From Mumia quercus (GTDB lineage: Bacteria > Actinomycetota > Actinomycetes > Propionibacteriales > Nocardioidaceae), in NCBI RefSeq assembly GCF_025506335.1, contig NZ_JANZYO010000004.1:186001-250000 (forward strand): a DNA stretch of 64,000 nucleotides, written 5' to 3'. This document shows, in pieces, positions 2,277-14,137 of the stretch. The notes below the pieces were generated by a model. It had not been told where the DNA came from. It saw only the letters and a program-made list of their open reading frames with translations, and ran no database searches. A program made the position numbers and the translations under genes. Numbering within the stretch: position 1 is the first letter of the stretch; every line of letters begins with the position of its first letter.

Positions 2277-3419
2277 TCAGATCCCCATCGTGCGGCCGAT
2301 GATCTCCTTCATGATCTCGGTCGTGCCGCCGTAGATCGTCTGGATGCGGGTGTCCGCGTACGCCTTCGAGATCGGGTACTCCGACATGAACCCGTACCCG
2401 CCGAACAGCTGCAGGCACTTGTCGACCGTCTTCTTCTGGAGCTCGGTCGTCCACCACTTGCCCATCGCGGCGTCGGCGACCGACAGGGTGCCGGCGTTGA
2501 GCTCGGTGATCGAGCGGTCGACGAAGACCTGGGCGATCTGCGCCTCGGTCTCGAGCTCGGCGAGCACGAAGCGGCTGTTCTGGAAGGAGCCGATCGGCCG
2601 GCCGAAGGCCTTGCGCTCCTTGACGTACTCGAGCGTGAGGTCGATGACGGCACGGCATGCGGCCGCGGCGGCGACGGAGATCGCGAGGCGCTCCTGCGGC
2701 AGCTTCTCCATGAGGTAGATGAAGCCCTTGCCCTCCTCGCCAAGGAGGTTCTCCTTGGGCACCTTGACGTCGGTGAAGAAGAGCTCTGCGGTGTCCTGCG
2801 CCTTGAGGCCGAGCTTGTCGAGGTTGCGTCCGCGCTCGAAGCCCTCCATCCCCCGCTCGAGGACGATCAACGAGACGCCGCGTGCGCCGGCGTCGGGGTC
2901 CGTCTTGACCGCGACGACGACGAGGTCGGCGAGGATGCCGTTGGAGATGAACGTCTTCTGCCCGTTCACCAGGTAGTGGTCGCCCTGGTCGATCGCCGTG
3001 GTCGCGATCGACTGCAGGTCGGAGCCGGTGCCGGGCTCGGTCATCGCGATCGCGGCGATCGACTCGCCGGTGCAGAACTTCGGCAGCCAACGCGCCTTCT
3101 GCTCCTCGGTCGCGTACGACAGCAGGTAGCCGGACACGAGGTCCACGTGCAGCGGGAAGCCGACGCCGCTGGCGTGCGCACGCGCCAGCTCCTCGTCGAT
3201 GATCGCGTTGAAGCGGAAGTCGGAGACGCCGCCGCCCCCGTACTCCTCGGGCATCATGAAGCCGAGGAACCCCTGCTTGCCGGCGGCGCGCCACATGTCG
3301 CGCGAGACGATCCCGTCCTTCTCCCACTGGTCGTGGTACGGCCGGATCTCCTTGTCCACGAACGTGCGGAAGGCGTCTCGGAACGCGTCGTGCTCGGGGG
3401 TGAAGATCGTGCGCTTCAT
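2277..3419 (-). CDS. Acyl-CoA dehydrogenase
   Basis: A 380-residue flavoenzyme of the normal family length. It introduces the alpha,beta double bond into an acyl-CoA using FAD and passes electrons to ETF. FAD- and substrate-binding signatures are visible in AIAMTEPGTGSDLQSI and the C-terminal QLFGGYGFMSEYP, followed by the TIYGGTTEIMKEIIGR stretch. The start is ATG 3419 with GAGGAG nine bases upstream. The caiB-like CoA-transferase gene ends 28 bases before it, so the pair probably activates and then oxidises one substrate. Substrate chain length cannot be read from the sequence. Confidence 0.92.
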   Translation of the reverse strand: MKRTIFTPEHDAFRDAFRTFVDKEIRPYHDQWEKDGIVSRDMWRAAGKQGFLGFMMPEEYGGGGVSDFRFNAIIDEELARAHASGVGFPLHVDLVSGYLLSYATEEQKARWLPKFCTGESIAAIAMTEPGTGSDLQSIATTAIDQGDHYLVNGQKTFISNGILADLVVVAVKTDPDAGARGVSLIVLERGMEGFERGRNLDKLGLKAQDTAELFFTDVKVPKENLLGEEGKGFIYLMEKLPQERLAISVAAAAACRAVIDLTLEYVKERKAFGRPIGSFQNSRFVLAELETEAQIAQVFVDRSITELNAGTLSVADAAMGKWWTTELQKKTVDKCLQLFGGYGFMSEYPISKAYADTRIQTIYGGTTEIMKEIIGRTMGI

Positions 3420-3447
3420 GGTGCTCCTCGTGAGGCGGGCGTACGGG

Positions 3448-4626
3448 TCAGTCGGCGTCGCGCTGCACGGCGGCGCCGGAGTCGATGAGGGCGTCGACGT
3501 CCTCGATGCCCCACGCGGCGAGCGCCTCGCGGGTGTCGGCACCGGGCTTGGACGGCGCACGGCCCAGGGAGGCAGGCGTACGGGAGAACCGGGGTGCGGG
3601 TGCCGCCTGGACGACGCCGTCGTGCTCGACGTACGTGCCGCGGGCGACGAGGTGCGGGTGCTTCGGCGCGTCGCGCATCGGCACCACGGGCGCCACGCAC
3701 GCGTCCGTGCCTTCGAACACCGCCGCCCACTCGGCCTGCGTGCGCTCGGCGAAGCGTGCCGCGAACCGCTCGCGCAGCCGGGGCCACTGCGTGACGTCGA
3801 AGCGGTCGGGAAGGTCCTCGAGCTCGAGCAGCGTGACCATCTCGTCGTAGAACTGCGGCTCGAGCGCGCCGACCGACATCCACAGCCCGTCGGCGGTCTC
3901 GTAGACGTCGTAGAAGGGCGACCCGCTGTCGAGCAGGTTGGTCCCCCGGGCGTCGCTCCACGCCCCCACCTGCTGGAGGTTCGAGATCATCGTCAGCAGG
4001 TGCGCGGTGCCGTCGACGATCGCGGCGTCGACCACCTGGCCGCGACCGGACTCGCGGGCCTCGACGAGCGCGGCCAGCACGCCGACGACGAGGTACATCG
4101 AGCCGCCGGCGAAGTCGCCGAGCAGGTTCATCGGGATCTGCGGGGGTCCGCCTGCGCGCCCGATCGGGTCCAGCGCGCCCGCCACCGAGACGTAGTTGAT
4201 GTCGTGGCCCGCACTGGGAGCCAGCGGTCCCTCCTGGCCCCAGCCGGTCATCCGCCCGTACACGAGTCGCGGGTTGATCCCGAGGCACACGTCGGGACCG
4301 AACCCGAGGCGCTCGGCCACCCCAGGACGGAAGCCCTCGACGAGCACGTCGGCCCGCCCGACCAGGTCGAGCAGCACGGCGACGCCCGCGGGGCGCTTGA
4401 GGTCGAGGGCGACCGACCGCCGCCCTCGCGCGAGGAGGTCCTTGTCCTGCGGGATCACGGCAAGTCCGCCTGGGGTCACCCGGTCGACGCGGATCACGTC
4501 GGCCCCGAGGTCCGCGAGCAGCATCGCGGCAAAGGGGCCGGGACCGATCCCGGCGATCTCGACGACACGGACACCGGAGAGCGGGCCGCCAGCGGGGGCC
4601 GCCGGCGAGGACGTGGTGTGGGTCAC
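3448..4626 (-). CDS. Family III CoA-transferase / alpha-methylacyl-CoA racemase-like (CaiB/BaiF)
   Basis: A 392-residue CaiB/BaiF-family protein. The N-terminal block GVRVVEIAGIGPGPFAAMLLADLGADVIRVD is typical of the family, and an Asp in the SAGHDINYVSVAG segment occupies the usual catalytic region. Family members move CoA between carboxylic acids or epimerise 2-methylacyl-CoA. It is the first gene of the minus-strand catabolic operon. The GTG start at 4626 lies shortly after a promoter whose spacer is filled by a 7-3-7 dyad. Racemase and transferase activity cannot be told apart from the sequence. Confidence 0.85.
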   Translation of the reverse strand: MTHTTSSPAAPAGGPLSGVRVVEIAGIGPGPFAAMLLADLGADVIRVDRVTPGGLAVIPQDKDLLARGRRSVALDLKRPAGVAVLLDLVGRADVLVEGFRPGVAERLGFGPDVCLGINPRLVYGRMTGWGQEGPLAPSAGHDINYVSVAGALDPIGRAGGPPQIPMNLLGDFAGGSMYLVVGVLAALVEARESGRGQVVDAAIVDGTAHLLTMISNLQQVGAWSDARGTNLLDSGSPFYDVYETADGLWMSVGALEPQFYDEMVTLLELEDLPDRFDVTQWPRLRERFAARFAERTQAEWAAVFEGTDACVAPVVPMRDAPKHPHLVARGTYVEHDGVVQAAPAPRFSRTPASLGRAPSKPGADTREALAAWGIEDVDALIDSGAAVQRDAD

Positions 4627-4636
4627 GCTCCGATTC

Positions 4637-4663
4637 TGACAGTAGGACTGTCATGGTTGTCAA
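4637..4663 (-). promoter_or_regulatory. Promoter of the caiB-like operon with operator between -35 and -10
   Basis: On the minus strand a consensus -35 TTGACA (4658-4663) precedes the perfect dyad TGACAGT-N3-ACTGTCA (4637-4653), with the -10 probably just beyond it (CAGAAT region). A repressor on this dyad would block the promoter directly. The dyad nearly matches the one at 126-142 before the thiolase gene. Confidence 0.6.
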
Positions 4664-4676
4664 CCCGCAGGTGAGC

Positions 4677-4712
4677 TATTCTGCCGCCAGGACGTGACAT
4701 GCCGCATGTCAC
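4677..4712 (+). promoter_or_regulatory. Promoter and 19-bp palindrome before the divergent hydrolase
   Basis: A -10 box TATTCT (4677-4682) is followed at about +5 to +23 by GTGACATGC-C-GCATGTCAC (4694-4712), a perfect palindrome. The position suits a repressor operator. Its half-site TGACAT resembles the TGACAGT half-site of the neighbouring operator but is not identical. Confidence 0.55.
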
Positions 4713-4735
4713 ATCATGGGTGACAGGAGTCTCCG

Positions 4736-5518
4736 ATGGGCGACATCGTGTACAGCCGCCGGGGTTCGGGCGAGCCGCTGGTCCTCATCCACGGCATCGG
4801 CCACCGCAAGGAGGCGTGGGGGCCGGTCGCGGACCGGCTGGCCGCGCACCACGACCTCATCGCGCTCGACCTGCCCGGGTTCGGCGCGTCCGGGCAGCTG
4901 CCCCGGCAGGGCCGCGACCGGATGGACCACCTCACCGAGGCGCTGGAGGGGTTCTTCCGCGATCTCGGCCTGGATCGTCCGCACGTGGCGGGCAACTCCC
5001 TCGGCGGCGCGATCGCGCTGGAGCTGGCCGCCCGCAGCTCGGTCCGAAGCGCCACCGCCCTCTCCCCCGCCGGCTTCTGGACCGAGCGCGAGCGTCTGTG
5101 GGCGTTCACGGTGCTCATGTCGATCCGCGCCTCCTCGTACCTGCCGAACCCGGTCACCCAGCAGGTGGCCCAGCGCGACTGGGCACGCGGGATCGCCATG
5201 GCGAGCCTGCACGCGCACGGAGGACGTCTCGCGTCGGACGCGTTCCTCGGCGACCTGCGTGCGCTGCGCGGCTGCACGGCCTTCAACCGGGTGCTGCGCG
5301 CCGGCGCGCGCTACGCCTACCGCTCCCAGCCGTCCGTCCCCGCGACGATCGCCTGGGGCACGAAGGACCGCATCCTCCTGCCCGTCCAGGCCGAGCGTGC
5401 CCGTGCGCAGCTGCCCGGGCTCACCCACGTACTGCTGCCCGGCGCAGGGCACGTGCCGATGATCGACGAGCCCGAGCTCGTGACCCAGGTGATCCTCGAC
5501 CAAGTCCGCGCCGCCTAG
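4736..5518 (+). CDS. Alpha/beta hydrolase
   Basis: A 260-residue alpha/beta hydrolase. It shows VLIHGIGHRKEAWGP, the nucleophile motif GNSLGG with Ser88, an acid residue in AWGTKDRIL and the catalytic His in GAGHVPM. AGGAG lies six bases before ATG 4736. It is divergent from the caiB-like operon and has a 19-bp palindrome in its 5' leader. The stop codon overlaps the stop of narK on the other strand by three bases. Substrate unknown; esterase, lactonase or C-C hydrolase are all possible. Confidence 0.85.
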   Translation: MGDIVYSRRGSGEPLVLIHGIGHRKEAWGPVADRLAAHHDLIALDLPGFGASGQLPRQGRDRMDHLTEALEGFFRDLGLDRPHVAGNSLGGAIALELAARSSVRSATALSPAGFWTERERLWAFTVLMSIRASSYLPNPVTQQVAQRDWARGIAMASLHAHGGRLASDAFLGDLRALRGCTAFNRVLRAGARYAYRSQPSVPATIAWGTKDRILLPVQAERARAQLPGLTHVLLPGAGHVPMIDEPELVTQVILDQVRAA

Positions 5519-8142: not shown

Positions 8143-9806
8143 CAGCCGTCACCCCTCCCCGGGAAGACCCCGTCGGCGGTGCCTCGCGCGTCCCAGTTGA
8201 GGAGGTTCACCTGGCCGCTGCGCTGCGGGTCGGGAGCGGCGATCGTGTCGGACTCCTGGCGTTGGCGCAGCGCGTGGAACGTCTCGACGGCGACCGGTAC
8301 GGGACGTCCGCTCGCCTCTCCGACCGGCCCGGACTCGTACATGCCCGGCCCTTCCTCGAAGTCGAGGGAGCAGCCCATCTCCTCCAGGTCGTGCGCCTGC
8401 TCGGTGTGCGCCGTCGGGATCACGTACCGCTCGTCGTACTTCGCCAGCGCCATGAGGCGGTACATCTCGTACATCGCCTCCTCGGTCATCCCGACCGACT
8501 CGGGGATGGAGGCGTCGGGCTCCTTGCCGAGGTTGAGGCCGCGCATGTACGACCGCATCGCGGCCAGCTTGCGCAGCACGTCGGTCACGATGTCGGTGTC
8601 GCCGGCGGTGAACAGCTCGGCGAGGTACTCGACGGGGATGCGCAGCGCCTCGATCGCCCCGAAGAGCGTGCCGGCATCCTCCGCGTCGTGGCCCTGTCCG
8701 GCGAGCAGGTCGACGATCGGCGACAGCGGCGGGACGTACCAGACCATCGGCATCGTCCGGTACTCCGGATGCAGCGGCAGCGCGATCCGGTACTTCTTCG
8801 CCAGCGCGTAGACCGGCGACCGCTGCGCCCCGTTGATCCAGTCCTCCGGGATCCCCTGGGCCCGGGCCTCCGCCACGACCCGCGGGTCGTCGGGGTCGAG
8901 CATCAGGTCGAGCTGCGCCTCGTACAGGTCGCGTTCGTCCTCCACCGCCGCCGCCTCGGCGACCCGGTCGGCGTCGTACAGGAAGACCCCGATGTAACGC
9001 AGCCGCCCGACGCACGTCTCCGCGCACACCGTCGGGATGCCGACCTCGACCCTCGGGTAGCAGAACGTGCACTTCTCGGCCTTGCCCGACTTGTGGTTGA
9101 AGTACATCTTCTTGTACGGGCAGCCGGTGATGCACTGCCGCCAGCCGCGGCACCGGTCCTGGTCGACGAGCACGATGCCGTCCTCGGAGCGCTTGTAGAT
9201 CGCCCCGCTCGGGCACGACGCCATGCACGACGGGTTGAGACAGTGCTCGCAGATCCGCGGCAGGTAGAACATGAAGGTGCTCTCGAGGTCGGTGCGGATC
9301 TTCTCCTCCGACTCGCGTCGCACCTTCTCGACGATCGGGTCCTGCGCGATCGCCGACGGACCTCCGCCGAGGTTGTCGTCCCAGTTCGCCGACCAGGTGA
9401 TCGCCATGTCGTCGCCGGTGATCAGCGACTTCGGGCGCGCCACGGGGAAGTCGTCGCCGAGCGGCGCGCGGGTGAGGTTCTCGTAGTCGTACGTCCACGG
9501 CTCGTAGTAGTCCGACAGCTCCGGCTGGACCGGGCTCGCGAAGATCGTCATCAGGCGCCGGGCGCGGCTGCCCGTGCGCAGCGAGATCCGCCCGCGCCGG
9601 TTGCGGACCCACCCGCCGCGCCACTTCTCCTGGTCCTCGTAGCGGCGCGGATAGCCCTGACCGGGCCGCGTCTCGACGTTGTTGAACCACACGTACTCGA
9701 CGCCGGCGCGGTTGGTCCACGCCTGCTTGCAGGTCACCGAGCACGTGTGGCACCCGATGCACTTGTCGAGGTTCATCACCATCGCGACCTGTGCCATGAC
9801 CTTCAT
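8142..9806 (-). CDS. narH: Respiratory nitrate reductase beta subunit (iron-sulfur)
   Basis: A 554-residue iron-sulfur protein carrying electrons from NarI to NarG. Four Cys-rich clusters are visible: CIGCHTCSVTCKQAW near residue 16, CEHCLNPSCMASCPSG, DQDRCRGWRQCITGCPYKK and CTFCYPRVEVGIPTVCAETC. The Trp in CRGW replaces a Cys and gives the [3Fe-4S] cluster typical of NarH. ATG 9806 has GAGGAGG upstream; a second ATG at codon 4 is possible. It lies between narG (15 bases) and narJ (one-base overlap). Confidence 0.96.
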   Translation of the reverse strand: MKVMAQVAMVMNLDKCIGCHTCSVTCKQAWTNRAGVEYVWFNNVETRPGQGYPRRYEDQEKWRGGWVRNRRGRISLRTGSRARRLMTIFASPVQPELSDYYEPWTYDYENLTRAPLGDDFPVARPKSLITGDDMAITWSANWDDNLGGGPSAIAQDPIVEKVRRESEEKIRTDLESTFMFYLPRICEHCLNPSCMASCPSGAIYKRSEDGIVLVDQDRCRGWRQCITGCPYKKMYFNHKSGKAEKCTFCYPRVEVGIPTVCAETCVGRLRYIGVFLYDADRVAEAAAVEDERDLYEAQLDLMLDPDDPRVVAEARAQGIPEDWINGAQRSPVYALAKKYRIALPLHPEYRTMPMVWYVPPLSPIVDLLAGQGHDAEDAGTLFGAIEALRIPVEYLAELFTAGDTDIVTDVLRKLAAMRSYMRGLNLGKEPDASIPESVGMTEEAMYEMYRLMALAKYDERYVIPTAHTEQAHDLEEMGCSLDFEEGPGMYESGPVGEASGRPVPVAVETFHALRQRQESDTIAAPDPQRSGQVNLLNWDARGTADGVFPGRGDG

Positions 9807-9821
9807 GTCGTCGCCACCTCC

Positions 9822-12800
9822 TCAGTACCTGACGGGAGCGGTCCGCTTGCGCACCGTGCAGACGATGTCGCGCTGGTTGCCGGTGGGGCCGAGGTAGTTG
9901 AACGTGTACGACAGCTGGGCGTACCCGCCGATCATGTGCGTCGGTTTGACCAGCAGGCGCGTGACCGAGTTGTGGATGCCGCCGCGCCGGCCCGTCTTCT
10001 GCGACTTGGGGACGTCGATCGTCCGCTCCTGCGCGTGGTGGACGTAGACCACGCCTTCGGGCATCCGGTGGCTGACGATCGCGCGGCCGACGAAGACGCC
10101 GTTGGCGTTGTCGCACTCGACCCAGTCGTTGTCGACGACCGCGATCTTGTCCGCGTCGGCGATGCTCATCCACACCGTCGGGCCGCCGCGCGACAGGGAG
10201 AGCATCAGCAGGTTGTCCTGGTACTCGGAGTGGATCGACCACTTGTTGTGCGGCGTCAGGTAGCGGACCGCGATCTGCACCGAGCCACCCTCACCCTGGC
10301 CGGTCGAGTAGTCCGAGCCGCCCCCTTGGCCGGTCGAGTAGTCCGAGCCGCTAGGCGAGGACGTATCGAGACCCGAGGTCTCGATACGAGCTCCGCTGGC
10401 GCTCCGCTCTACTCGACCACCTGGGGCATGGCCGTCCGGGAGCCGTGCGTCGCCGTACATGAGGTGCATGTCCAGCGGCGGCCGGTACGTCGGGAGCTGC
10501 TCGCCGTAGTCGCGCATCCAGTCGTGGTCGAGGAAGAAGTGCATGCGGCCCGTGAGCGTACGGAACGGCATGAGCCGCTCGATGTTGACCGTGAACGGCG
10601 CGTACCGTCGCCCTCCGGTCTCCGAGCCCGACCACTCCGGCGAGGTGATCACCGGCTGCGGGGAGTCCTGGGTCATCGCGAAGGTGATCTTCTTCTCCTC
10701 CGCACCCTCGGCAAGGTCCACGAGCCGCCTGCCCGTACGACGCTCGAGGTCGCGGAATCCCTGGACGGCGAGGGCGCCGTTGGTCGTCCCCGAGAAGGTG
10801 AGGACCGCCTCCGCCAGCCGGGCGTCCGTGTCGATCGCCGGCCGGCCGGCCGCCGGGCCCGACGACATCACGCCGTGCTTGGCCGCGAGGGACCGCACCG
10901 CCTCGTCGAGCTGGTACGTGACGTTCTTGACGGCGAAGCCGAGCTGCTCGGCCTTCGGACCGACGGTGACGAGCTTGTCGGCGATCGCCGTGTAGTCCCG
11001 CTCGACGACCGCGACCGCCGGCATCGTCTTGCCCGCGACCGGCTCCACCTCGCCCTCGCGCCAGTCGAGGTCACGTCCGCCCCGCTGGGCGATCTCACCC
11101 GGGGTGTCGTGCTGCAGCGGCACGGTGACGAGGTCCTTGCGGGTCCCGAGGTGCGTCTTCGCCAGCTCGGAGAGACGACGGGCGAGGGCGACGAACATGT
11201 CGTAGTCGCTGCGCGCCTCCCACGGCGGGTCGATCGCCGGCGTGAACGCGTGGACGTACGGGTGCATGTCGGTCGAGCTCAGGTCGTACTTCTCGTACCA
11301 GGTCGCGGCGGGGAAGACGATGTCGCTCAGCAGGGTCGTCGACGTCATGCGGAAGTCGGCCGACACGAGGAGGTCGAGCTTGCCCTGCGGCGCCTCGGGG
11401 CGCATGCGGATCGTCTTGGGCGCCTCGGCGGCGTCCGGCGCGTCGACGTTGGACTGGGTGCCGAGGAGGTACTGGAGGAAGTACTCGTTGCCCTTGGCCG
11501 AGCTGCCGAAGAGGTTCGAGCGCCACAGCACCAGCGTGCGCGGCCAGTTCTCAGGCGCGTCGACGTCGTCGATCGCGGCGTTCAGGCTGCCGTCGCGCAG
11601 GCGGTCGGCGACCCACGCCCCCGCATCGGCGGCGCTGCCGTCGGCGGTGGCCGCGCTCGCCTCGTCGGCCAGGTCGAGCGGGTTGCGGTCGAACTGCGGG
11701 TAGAACGGCATCCAGCCCTGCCGCGCCGACTTCGCGATCACGTCGGCGGTGTGCAGGCCCGCGAGGTGCCCCTCCGCGAGCGGCGACGTGAGCACGTCCT
11801 GGTGGGAGCCGTCGGAGCGCCACTGGTCGGTGTGCATGTACCAGTACGAGGTGCCGGTCATCGTCCGCGGCGGCCGCGTCCAGTCCAGGGCGTTCGCCAG
11901 CGAGATCCAGCCGGTGATCGGGCGGCACTTCTCCTGCCCCACGTAGTGCGCCCAGCCACCGCCGTTGCGTCCCATCGCTCCTGTCGCCATGAGGAGCGTG
12001 AGGATCGCCCGGTAGCTGACGTCGCCGTGGAACCACTGGCACACGCCGGCGCCCATGATGATCATCGAGCGGCCTCCGGACTCCTCGGAGTTGCGGGCCA
12101 GCTCGCGCGCGATCCGGATGCACTGCTCCGCGGGGACGGAGGTGATCTCCTCCTGCCAGGCGGGCGTGTAAGGGGTGGAGGCGTCGTCGTACCCCGTCGG
12201 CCACTCTCCCGGAAGGCCGTCACGGCCCACCCCGTACTGGGCGAGCATGAGGTCCAGGACCGTCGTCACCGCGTGGCCGGCGACCTGACGGACCGGGATG
12301 CCGCGGCGCACCAGCGAACCCGAGCCGTCCGGCGTGTCGAACGTCGCCATCAGGACCTCACCGGGTCGCGCGTCGGGGCCGATCACCGACAGCGCCGGGT
12401 CCACCTCGCCGAGATCGAGGTTCCACCGGCCCTCACCGGTCTCGCCGTAGCGGAAGCCCATCGACCCGTTCGGGACGACGGTGTCGTTCGTGGTCGCGTC
12501 GAGGACGACTGTCTTCGACTCCGCGTTCTCCGACGTCCCGCCGAGGTCGGCCTCGGTGAGGAACTTCTCCGGCACCCACGCCCCGTCCTCGCTCTGCGAG
12601 AGCCGCACGAGGAACGGCAGGTCGGTGTACTGCTTCACGTAGTCGGTGAAGAACGGCACCTGCCGCTCGAGGTAGAACTCCTTGAAGATCACGTGCCCCA
12701 TCGCCATCGCGAGTGCGGCGTCGGTCCCGGCCTGGGCTGGCATCCACTCGTCGGCGAACTTCGTGTTGTCCGCGTAGTCGGGCGACACCGCGACCACCTT

Positions 12801-13700
12801 GGTGCCTCGGTAGCGCACCTCCGCCATCCAGTGCGCGTCCGGCGTGCGGGTCACGGGCACGTTGGAGCCCCACATCATCAGGTACGAGGCGTCCCACCAG
12901 TCTCCGGACTCCGGGACGTCCGTCTGGTCGCCGAAGACCTGCGGGCTCGCGACCGGCAGGTCCGCGTACCAGTCGTAGAACGAGGTCATCACGCCGCCGA
13001 TGAGCTGGATGAACCGCGTGCCCACGCAGTGGGACACGATCGACATCGCCGGGATCGGGGAGAACCCCGCGCAGCGGTCGGGTCCGTACGTCTTGATGGT
13101 GTTGACGTGAGCGGCGGCGGCGATCTCGATCGCCTCGTCCCAGGAGATCCGGACGAGACCGCCCTTGCCGCGGGCGCTCTGGTAGCGGCGCCGCTTCTCC
13201 GGGTCGGCGGCGATCTCGGCGAACGCGAGCACCGGGTCGCCCAGGCGCTTCTTCGCCTCGCGGTACATCTCGATGAGCGTCCCCCGCCCGTACGGGTAGC
13301 GGACGCGGGTCGGCGAGTACGTGTACCAAGAGAACGCGGCCCCTCGCGGGCACCCCCGCGGCTCGTACTCCGGCCGGTCGGGACCGGTGCTCGGGTAGTC
13401 GGTCTGCTGGGCCTCCCACGTGATGATGCCGTCCTTGACGTACACCTTCCACGAGCAGGACCCGGTGCAGTTCACCCCGTGCGTCGAGCGGACGACCTTG
13501 TCGTGGCTCCAGCGATCGCGGTAGAAGACGTCGCCGCTGCGCCCGCCCTCGCGGTAGACGGAGCGTCGGTCGGGGCTCTCGTCCCAGCGGGTGAAGAAGT
13601 CTCCCAGCGCGAGCAGCGCCTCGGACGCGGGGCCGTCGGTCCCCGGCGTCGCGCCTCGGCGTCGCGATCGTGCGCGTCCCTCACGGGTCGTCTCGGTCAT
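9822..13700 (-). CDS. narG: Respiratory nitrate reductase alpha subunit with an in-frame repeat insertion
   Basis: A 1292-residue molybdopterin enzyme that reduces nitrate to nitrite on the cytoplasmic face. The FS0 cluster motif H-x3-C-x3-C is in THGVNCTGSCSWKVY, and the Mo-ligand Asp region is SFYDWYADLPVASPQ. The start ATG 13700 has a consensus AAGGAGGT. Residues about 1087-1137 are foreign to the family: a palindromic repeat element has been translated in frame between the conserved LPTYRPPLDMHLMYGD and VQIAVRYLTPHNKWSIHSEY blocks, adding about 45 residues with two GSDYSTGQG copies. No stop or frame change occurs, so the enzyme may still be active. Confidence 0.95.
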   Translation of the reverse strand: MTETTREGRARSRRRGATPGTDGPASEALLALGDFFTRWDESPDRRSVYREGGRSGDVFYRDRWSHDKVVRSTHGVNCTGSCSWKVYVKDGIITWEAQQTDYPSTGPDRPEYEPRGCPRGAAFSWYTYSPTRVRYPYGRGTLIEMYREAKKRLGDPVLAFAEIAADPEKRRRYQSARGKGGLVRISWDEAIEIAAAAHVNTIKTYGPDRCAGFSPIPAMSIVSHCVGTRFIQLIGGVMTSFYDWYADLPVASPQVFGDQTDVPESGDWWDASYLMMWGSNVPVTRTPDAHWMAEVRYRGTKVVAVSPDYADNTKFADEWMPAQAGTDAALAMAMGHVIFKEFYLERQVPFFTDYVKQYTDLPFLVRLSQSEDGAWVPEKFLTEADLGGTSENAESKTVVLDATTNDTVVPNGSMGFRYGETGEGRWNLDLGEVDPALSVIGPDARPGEVLMATFDTPDGSGSLVRRGIPVRQVAGHAVTTVLDLMLAQYGVGRDGLPGEWPTGYDDASTPYTPAWQEEITSVPAEQCIRIARELARNSEESGGRSMIIMGAGVCQWFHGDVSYRAILTLLMATGAMGRNGGGWAHYVGQEKCRPITGWISLANALDWTRPPRTMTGTSYWYMHTDQWRSDGSHQDVLTSPLAEGHLAGLHTADVIAKSARQGWMPFYPQFDRNPLDLADEASAATADGSAADAGAWVADRLRDGSLNAAIDDVDAPENWPRTLVLWRSNLFGSSAKGNEYFLQYLLGTQSNVDAPDAAEAPKTIRMRPEAPQGKLDLLVSADFRMTSTTLLSDIVFPAATWYEKYDLSSTDMHPYVHAFTPAIDPPWEARSDYDMFVALARRLSELAKTHLGTRKDLVTVPLQHDTPGEIAQRGGRDLDWREGEVEPVAGKTMPAVAVVERDYTAIADKLVTVGPKAEQLGFAVKNVTYQLDEAVRSLAAKHGVMSSGPAAGRPAIDTDARLAEAVLTFSGTTNGALAVQGFRDLERRTGRRLVDLAEGAEEKKITFAMTQDSPQPVITSPEWSGSETGGRRYAPFTVNIERLMPFRTLTGRMHFFLDHDWMRDYGEQLPTYRPPLDMHLMYGDARLPDGHAPGGRVERSASGARIETSGLDTSSPSGSDYSTGQGGGSDYSTGQGEGGSVQIAVRYLTPHNKWSIHSEYQDNLLMLSLSRGGPTVWMSIADADKIAVVDNDWVECDNANGVFVGRAIVSHRMPEGVVYVHHAQERTIDVPKSQKTGRRGGIHNSVTRLLVKPTHMIGGYAQLSYTFNYLGPTGNQRDIVCTVRKRTAPVRY
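10296..10420. repeat. Palindromic repeat element inside narG
   Basis: The core is a perfect 12-3-12 inverted repeat, CGTATCGAGACC / GGTCTCGATACG (10362-10388). Outer arms GGTCGAGTA (10332-10340) and TACTCGACC (10410-10418) complete the palindrome. The left arm region is duplicated with a 30-base period (24 identical bases at 10297-10320 and 10327-10350). I recall elements of this design as intergenic repeats in Nocardioides-like genomes; here it is translated as part of NarG. No second copy was noticed in this window. Confidence 0.85.
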
Positions 13701-13725
13701 CGCAGACCTCCTTCGGGTCAACGTA

Positions 13726-13743
13726 GGTCCGGCGCGCCGGACC
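13726..13743. promoter_or_regulatory. 18-bp perfect palindrome between narG and the divergent cupin gene
   Basis: GGTCCGGCGCGCCGGACC is fully self-complementary and lies 26 bases before the narG start codon, between narG and the divergent cupin gene. It could be an operator for either gene or an mRNA hairpin in the narG leader. No FNR-type TTGAT-N4-ATCAA site is visible in this gap. Confidence 0.4.
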
Positions 13744-13816
13744 CGCACCCGGAAGCCGCGGACGCCGACCCGCGCTACGCTCGCCGGGACCCAGGGCCTC
13801 GCAGGAGGGAGACGCG

Positions 13817-14137
13817 ATGCGTGACATCGCCGCGCTGACCGAGGAGTACGTGGAGGCGGCCAGCAGCTCGCCGCACGGCCGCAGCGCCGAGCTGGTCCTC
13901 CAGGACGGGCCGCTGCGCCAGAGCGTGCTGGGGCTCGCGGAGGGGGCCGAGCTCGCCGAGCACGACGCCCCGCCTGCCGCCAGCGTGCTCGTGCTCAAGG
14001 GCTCGATCGAGATCGTGAGCGCGTCCGGGACGCTCGCGCTCGAGACGGGGATGATCACCGAGGTCCCGCGGGAGCGTCACTCGGTACGCGCGCTCGTCCC
14101 CTCGGCGTTCCTGCTCACCGCCGTCACCGACATCTGA
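13817..14137 (+). CDS. Small cupin-domain protein
   Basis: A 106-residue protein with the strand pattern of a single cupin barrel: AEHDAPPAASVLVLKGSIEIVS, then LETGMITEVPRERHSV. One candidate metal His is in each half (EHDAPP and ERHSV), fewer than in a full cupin metal site, so a sensor or binding role is as likely as catalysis. AGGAGGGAG precedes ATG 13817. It is divergent from narG across 116 bases. Small cupins commonly adjoin nitrate reductase genes in actinobacteria; their role is not known to me. Confidence 0.7.
   Translation: MRDIAALTEEYVEAASSSPHGRSAELVLQDGPLRQSVLGLAEGAELAEHDAPPAASVLVLKGSIEIVSASGTLALETGMITEVPRERHSVRALVPSAFLLTAVTDI

Follow-up and report, generated by a model that had tools for sequence, protein, structure and literature searches.

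Dispersed repeats in which two inverted hairpin units act as one, and which also occur as mosaic arrays, are known as REPINs and BIMEs and are tied to RAYT transposases. For GTAG-tagged REPs, Di Nocera et al. (2013, PMC3733652) present RAYTs as the hypothesised movers and report translated copies in other phyla, dimers adding 20-30 aa and clusters 43-82 aa; the main text of that paper does not contain the words Actinobacteria, Nocardioides, Streptomyces or Propionibacter. The window analysed here is the whole stretch of 64,000 nucleotides from the soil bacterium Mumia quercus, in which narG, the gene for the respiratory nitrate reductase alpha subunit, contains a repeat element of comparable design. 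We consider it very probable that this is a dispersed, hairpin-forming, REP-like element of the Nocardioidaceae, inserted as a head-to-head dimer in frame in a loop of narG, tolerated there, and moved by an enzyme unlike the usual REP transposase. The features of the locus are as follows.

9822..13748, minus strand: narG, respiratory nitrate reductase alpha subunit, 1308 aa (ORF list, TIGR01580, PF00384, PF01568)
10294..10419, minus strand: whole element in narG, an inverted pair of half-units and a duplicated tail, coding for about GGRVERSASGARIETSGLDTSSPSGSDYSTGQGGGSDYSTGQG
10377..10418, minus strand: first half-unit in the reading direction, with GGTCGA-GTAG tag, hairpin and GTATCGAGACC, in forward frame 1 (GRVERSASGARIET), recognised from the inverted repeat
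10374..10376, no strand: spacer of the central palindrome, 3 nt
10332..10373, plus strand: second half-unit, tag toward the low coordinate, read by the coding strand in reverse frame 1 (GLDTSSPSGSDYST)
10362..10388, no strand: perfect 12-3-12 core palindrome CGTATCGAGACC-CGA-GGTCTCGATACG
10332-10340 and 10410-10418, within the inverted repeat: outer arms GGTCGAGTA/TACTCGACC
10294..10321, minus strand: duplicated tail of 28 nt, which repeats part of the half-unit on its tag side together with the flank

The inverted repeat (42+3+42 nt, 10332-10418) is 76% complementary, and in the narG copy the two half-units face each other head-to-head, their tags outside, with one tail added; tail repeats resembling it are also present in other genomic copies. 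The palindrome, the outer arms and the uninterrupted narG frame had all been read by the first-pass annotation, and they were recovered at the positions listed, the 1308-aa ORF being unbroken across the entire element and scoring 1538 bits with TIGR01580, whose cut-off is 1084. The 30-base duplication that it described does exist, but its size is 28 nt at 96% identity (10294-10321 versus 10324-10351), 30 nt being the spacing. The residue range it had given, 1087-1137, did not hold, the element occupying approximately residues 1110-1152 of the ORF as called, in a numbering which depends on the start codon. The peptide stretch IETSGLDTSSPSGSDYSTGQG belongs to the predicted translated insert, as judged from the sequence. 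As RNA, the narG copy is predicted to fold strongly (z -4.75; 0/200 shuffles equally low). On the plus strand, a 1858-aa open frame (8262-13838) runs antisense through narGH and is probably a mere effect of the high G+C.

On searching the genome with the core CGTATCGAGACC, allowing up to one mismatch, 152 sites were found against 4 for the backward control, and a search with 151 bases around the element returned at least 120 matches at E <=0.001, of which the best other place among the matches listed was 93% identical over the full 121 nt (E 1e-44). This match, together with the excess of core sites over the control, rules out chance, and the possibility of a chance palindrome or an ordinary low-complexity loop was rejected on account of the genome-wide copies. 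No Rfam family matched at the element; a mir-3389 hit at 10122-10197 (E 0.48, far under the gathering score) was dismissed as chance. In the printed copies the repeating unit reads TGGTCGA-GTAG-hairpin-GTATCGAGACC, and such units stand alone, form inverted pairs or make up arrays, where additional tag-side tails with their flank are often present; the commonest half-unit length is 42 nt or 14 codons. A second, different palindrome, CACTCAGCGACGC...GCGTCGCTGAGTG, lies inside or beside some clusters of this genome (L151 5246-5577, L161 128-376, L174 3020-3381 and L176 just before 3022).

The first-pass annotation had described elements of this design as intergenic repeats of Nocardioides-like genomes, and the element is indeed a genome-wide repeat of the Nocardioidaceae, its exact core word occurring in 76 of 197 genomes of the family, with a maximum of 291 sites per genome. 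At least 20 exact sites are present in 29 of the 197, this genome among them; one of its relatives, G002, has 3 only. Of 393 genomes of the class, 20 have a longer pattern, GGTCTCGATACG-N10-40-TACTCGACC, these being 13/36 Nocardioidaceae, 7/20 of one other family (f37) and 0/337 of the rest; between its constant ends the hairpin is freely variable in these genomes. A literature search returned no description of this actinobacterial family, its short words occurring only in papers which, by title, treat unrelated subjects.

The hairpin was analysed on 27 distinct 22-nt bodies, out of 46 distinct bodies of all lengths, using a structure that had been chosen after inspecting the sequences. Stem cells were paired in 96.9% of cases, compared with 75.3% in shuffles (0/500 equally high) and at most 47.4% when the partners were slid, and the covariation score was 0.489 versus 0.117 (again 0/500 shuffles equally high). 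One stem position uses five standard pair types (GC, CG, UA, UG and AU). Two of the five measures fail against the shuffles, namely pairs changed on both sides (459/500) and further pair types (168/500), and 3 only of the 6 stem pairs change on both sides. The sequence GGTCGAGTAG occurs 121 times in the fetched stretches of this genome; its last G pairs in the tested stem and the conserved sequence continues outside. Judged by these comparisons, the half-unit is a covarying hairpin with a GTAG tag.

The insert lies between a YRPPLDM block and a RYLTPHxKWSIHS block, which are 104 aa apart here and 62 aa apart in the closest species. In the 80 NarG loci compared, where seven of the stretches were read by eye from printed sequence, the same distance is 55-68 aa, and the range among five other Mumia species is 56-73 aa. 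The two blocks had been described as nearly adjacent in other NarG proteins; the extra length in this protein was confirmed, but elsewhere the blocks are separated by the 55-68 aa just mentioned. A segment of the length of the insert was seen in 0/80 of these loci and the full insert in 0/5 of the other Mumia species, as expected from the earlier reading that NarG proteins lack it. The closest named NarG is that of Mumia xiangluensis (NZ_WJYO01000001, 87%), and this genome has one full-length NarG match only. By alignment, the insert is predicted to add about 42 residues in a NarG loop of variable length. In E. coli NarG (1r27), a profile search places a hydrophilic stretch at the position matching the insert, and an AlphaFold2 model of the C-terminal 449 NarG residues, with a mean pLDDT of 48, was too poor for placing the loop.

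The absence of a stop codon in the insertion had been regarded as noteworthy. Among 94 half-units from the fetched stretches of this genome, forward frames 1, 2 and 3 are open in 91%, 9% and 65%, and reverse frames 1, 2 and 3 in 89%, 89% and 69%, respectively, forward frame 2 being mostly closed because of the tag. With five of the six frames open in 65-91% of the copies, and with the commonest unit measuring 14 codons, an open frame is to be expected and is unremarkable. The choice of frame is of more interest, as intact in-frame reverse units lie in reverse frame 1 in 7/7 loci examined (narG, AlkZ-like, the ADCS of G005, Mfd, biotin carboxylase-like, NMT1-like and CofGH-like), with a chance of ~0.0008 by our own arithmetic, for loci that are few, were found by a test demanding an open frame and include two terminal cases. 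Reverse frame 1 encodes the small hydrophilic peptide GLDTxSPSGSxYST and its relatives, whereas reverse frame 2, open equally often, is arginine-rich. Counter to a preference for frame 1, the diverged stretches of G002 in AlkZ-like and ADCS carry their heads in reverse frames 2 and 3. The preference may be a hint of selection on the peptide.

Other translated copies were sought with a two-flank test, in which a cluster had to contain two or more element motifs, be free of stops throughout and have coding-like codon-position G+C on both flanks. The clusters fetched from this genome number 45 and represent part of its copies (40/81 candidates scored); 3 of the 45 clusters listed are predicted to be in frame and coding on both flanks, and hence a minority of the copies are translated. 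Elsewhere the test was passed by 2/23 clusters of G005, 1/56 of five other genomes of the family and 0/3 of G003 and G004. The internal in-frame copies of this genome and of G005, and a further case from the family, are given below.

This genome (Pfam/NCBIfam names): narG; AlkZ-like glycosylase, L157; aminodeoxychorismate synthase (ADCS), L295
G005: ADCS, L274 (named by its match); Mfd, L277
G087 C1:2295600-2299900, minus strand, L226: CofGH-like protein with element copies

The narG copy is not the one-off that it had seemed, since the AlkZ-like, ADCS, Mfd and CofGH-like copies are in frame as well. In the CofGH-like protein, four translated half-units are predicted in the linker. In its CofH half the match to the CofH model begins only at position 71, and the protein scores under both the CofGH and the CofH cut-offs; the part that seems to be missing is where we would presume the radical-SAM cysteines to lie. 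Two of the copies, in the AlkZ-like protein (L157) and in Mfd (L277), are hosted by DNA-repair proteins, which fits the bias of intragenic REPs described in PMC3733652. Possible N- or C-terminal clusters were flagged in this genome (2), in G005 (3) and in the family sample (7). In this genome, the distance from the conserved start of a biotin carboxylase-like protein to its FTSVLVANRGEIA motif has grown by ~75 residues, a GTG just 5' of this motif being a possible alternative start, and the end of an NMT1-like protein is made of element sequence. Element-sequence ends were also observed at L151 in a LysR-like ORF (3071-3958, minus strand) and an MFS-like ORF (4016-5269, plus strand), both named by eye, which finish with GLDTPLG and GLDTGLR followed by a stop within the element.

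Counterparts at the same protein sites were searched for in the related genomes using a query set that includes this genome's own ADCS unit and a null of 240 segments (120 of other genera and 120 Mumia coding stretches). Three of the 15 relative segments scored above all 240 nulls. In narG of G002, a diverged half-unit lies at the same place and in the same orientation (score 25.5, reached by 0/120 and 0/120 nulls) and makes up a large part of the extra loop length of that protein. The AlkZ-like gene of G003 has a shrunken unit in the matching loop (score 17, 0/240 nulls), and the ADCS of G003 scored 34 (0/240 nulls); on leaving out this genome's ADCS query the latter still scored 29, above 148/148 nulls, which include windows overlapping the tested places. 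The segments alkZ of G002 (2/240) and narG of G001 (1/240) were borderline, and the narG G001 match is perhaps due to chance because its loop is not expanded. The other 10 of the 15 were not significant, including ADCS of G002 (7/240, a reverse-looking stretch), ADCS of G004 (22/240), narG of G003 (10/240), the biotin carboxylase start of G005 (34/240) and the AlkZ-like gene of G005 (172/240).

For each of the three internal insertions predicted in this genome, at least one other Mumia species has a copy or a clear remnant at the corresponding site of the protein, as far as these matches go. Such same-site counterparts across species imply either that some insertions are old or that the sites have been hit repeatedly. 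A tree of three genes gave (G000,G003),((G005,G002),G004) with G001 outside, G000 being this genome, with support of 100 for both pairs and 72-79 for G004. On this topology, the narG sites in G000 and G002 require an old insertion with losses or two insertions. The PabB-PabC linker of ADCS holds a forward unit in G000 and G003, and a reverse and a forward unit in G005; most simply, the shared unit of G000 and G003 would be a single ancestral insertion.

Several other explanations were weighed. The element could be a genuine GTAG REP that, like those of Proteobacteria, was moved by a RAYT (Y1 transposase), the enzyme having since been lost or lying in a genome gap; the GTAG tag, the hairpin, the head-to-head dimers and the mosaic clusters all fit the description in PMC3733652. 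We nevertheless find this unlikely, since PF01797, the usual REP transposase family, has 0 matches in this 99.98% complete genome, in the 29 family genomes with at least 20 exact core sites and in the 7 element-bearing genomes of the second family (f37), the 2 of 197 family genomes that do have matches having 1 and 0 exact core sites; the control for this search was positive in 5/14 genomes, E. coli included. The RAYT link was therefore rejected for the genomes tested, the element-rich ones being devoid of PF01797. A mobiliser gene located between paired copies was likewise rejected, as the five intervals hold ordinary-looking genes only (ORFs of at least 90 aa that passed a codon-position filter, named by eye). 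The mobilising enzyme thus does not look like the usual REP transposase, so far as can be judged from these genomes. With regard to MITEs, no clean empty site was found at which a target-site duplication could be read, the narG loop being too diverged between species. Wrong joining of a repeat into narG during assembly deserves a word because several contigs have a terminus at a distance of 127 or 128 bases from an element match (starts of C2, C9 and C10; ends of C1, C10 and C11), which indicates that the element does break the assembly, seemingly with an overlap of fixed size. Such an artefact is nonetheless hardly credible here, for the two flanks are matching parts of a single narG ORF, the element is short, and the separate assemblies of G003 and G005 also hold in-frame protein copies.

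The remaining explanations concern the fate of narG itself. An insert of 42 residues in a catalytic subunit could damage it, and with a single full-length NarG match in the genome the gene might be a decaying pseudogene whose frame is fortuitously open. Against this, dN/dS between this genome and G003, the closest species, is 0.10, and the dN of narG, measured to G005, comes to 0.067 here and to 0.066 in the sister species G003; given this low ratio and the near-equal dN of both sisters, no sign of decay or relaxed evolution is apparent, although a very recent insertion would not yet be visible in such values. By the same measures narG appears to be under purifying selection and to evolve no faster than its sister. 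The family score is well over the cut-off and like inserts persist in other genes and species; moreover, the neighbouring frames, which we take to be narH and narJ, are intact in the ORF list. Inactivation of narG is therefore a very improbable explanation. The opposite idea, that the element is kept for a role in narG, either as an mRNA hairpin slowing or regulating translation or as a useful flexible loop, draws on the strong RNA fold, on the half-unit at the same narG site in G002 and on the retention of AlkZ-like and ADCS inserts across species. It seems improbable too, as narG of G003, G004 and G005 is without a significant copy and that of G001 has a borderline one only, and species differ freely in how many units they have and in what these read. 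None of the analyses made gave support for a function of the insert in nitrate reduction, and the peptide that the insert encodes is most likely without a role of its own in this process.

If a tolerated REP-like insertion is the correct reading, copies would survive within genes because the length of the half-unit is usually divisible by three and most of its frames are open. Selection would then keep only those copies that are read in a benign frame and sit in a loop, a linker or a terminus, the benign frame presumably being for the most part the Gly/Ser/Thr/Asp/Tyr frame GLDTxSPSGSxYST, and the tail duplication may have arisen from tandem slippage at the hairpin. A broader proposal can be put forward only tentatively, and may well prove wrong: an actinobacterial GTAG-like hairpin family would spread without a known REP transposase, and its loop and linker copies in core enzymes would become lasting segments, retained at the same sites over much of the age of the genus while reorienting, shrinking and multiplying in frame, and outlasting the mobile family itself. 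G002, with a half-unit in narG in spite of its few exact core sites, provides an example of such persistence. If true, this would make a mobile element a continuing supplier of new protein loops.

That REP-like palindromes can be translated is known; what is new is the actinobacterial family, the missing transposase and the recurrence at the same sites. The first-pass annotation had supposed that translation was undescribed for such repeats, which stands for the actinobacterial family, as far as the literature search went, but not for GTAG REPs of other phyla, where PMC3733652 already reports it. The hosts listed earlier are Rickettsia and the REP-bearing phyla of that paper, and hairpin repeats read as protein now reach high-GC actinobacteria, in respiratory, folate-pathway and DNA-repair proteins. 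Sister species at different stages of insertion allow the passage from mobile DNA to protein to be followed, and for some inserts the histories between species are readable. An abundant element without a known transposase also raises the question of its mover.

Among known systems, REPINs and BIMEs have the inverted-pair unit and the mosaic arrays in common with this element, a RAYT not having been found here. In comparison with GTAG-tagged REPs, as described by Di Nocera et al. (2013, PMC3733652), the Mumia unit is longer (42 nt), with GGTCGA conserved beyond the tag and GTATCGAGACC at the opposite side, the host is actinobacterial, and the element-rich genomes tested are without the PF01797 transposase. 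Both are high-copy palindromes, mostly intergenic, that carry GTAG at one end, preserve their stem through paired changes and form head-to-head dimers as well as clusters in which the flank is repeated, and in both some copies lie in frame within ORFs, including DNA-repair genes (here Mfd and AlkZ-like). The Rickettsia palindromic elements (RPE), as summarised in the same paper, belong to an unrelated lineage, and only a minority of the copies are translated here. They share with it the in-frame translation inside genes of probably functional proteins, and the likeness to Rickettsia coding repeats proposed by the first-pass annotation is borne out by the in-frame insertions in functional-looking genes, narG as well as those of other proteins.
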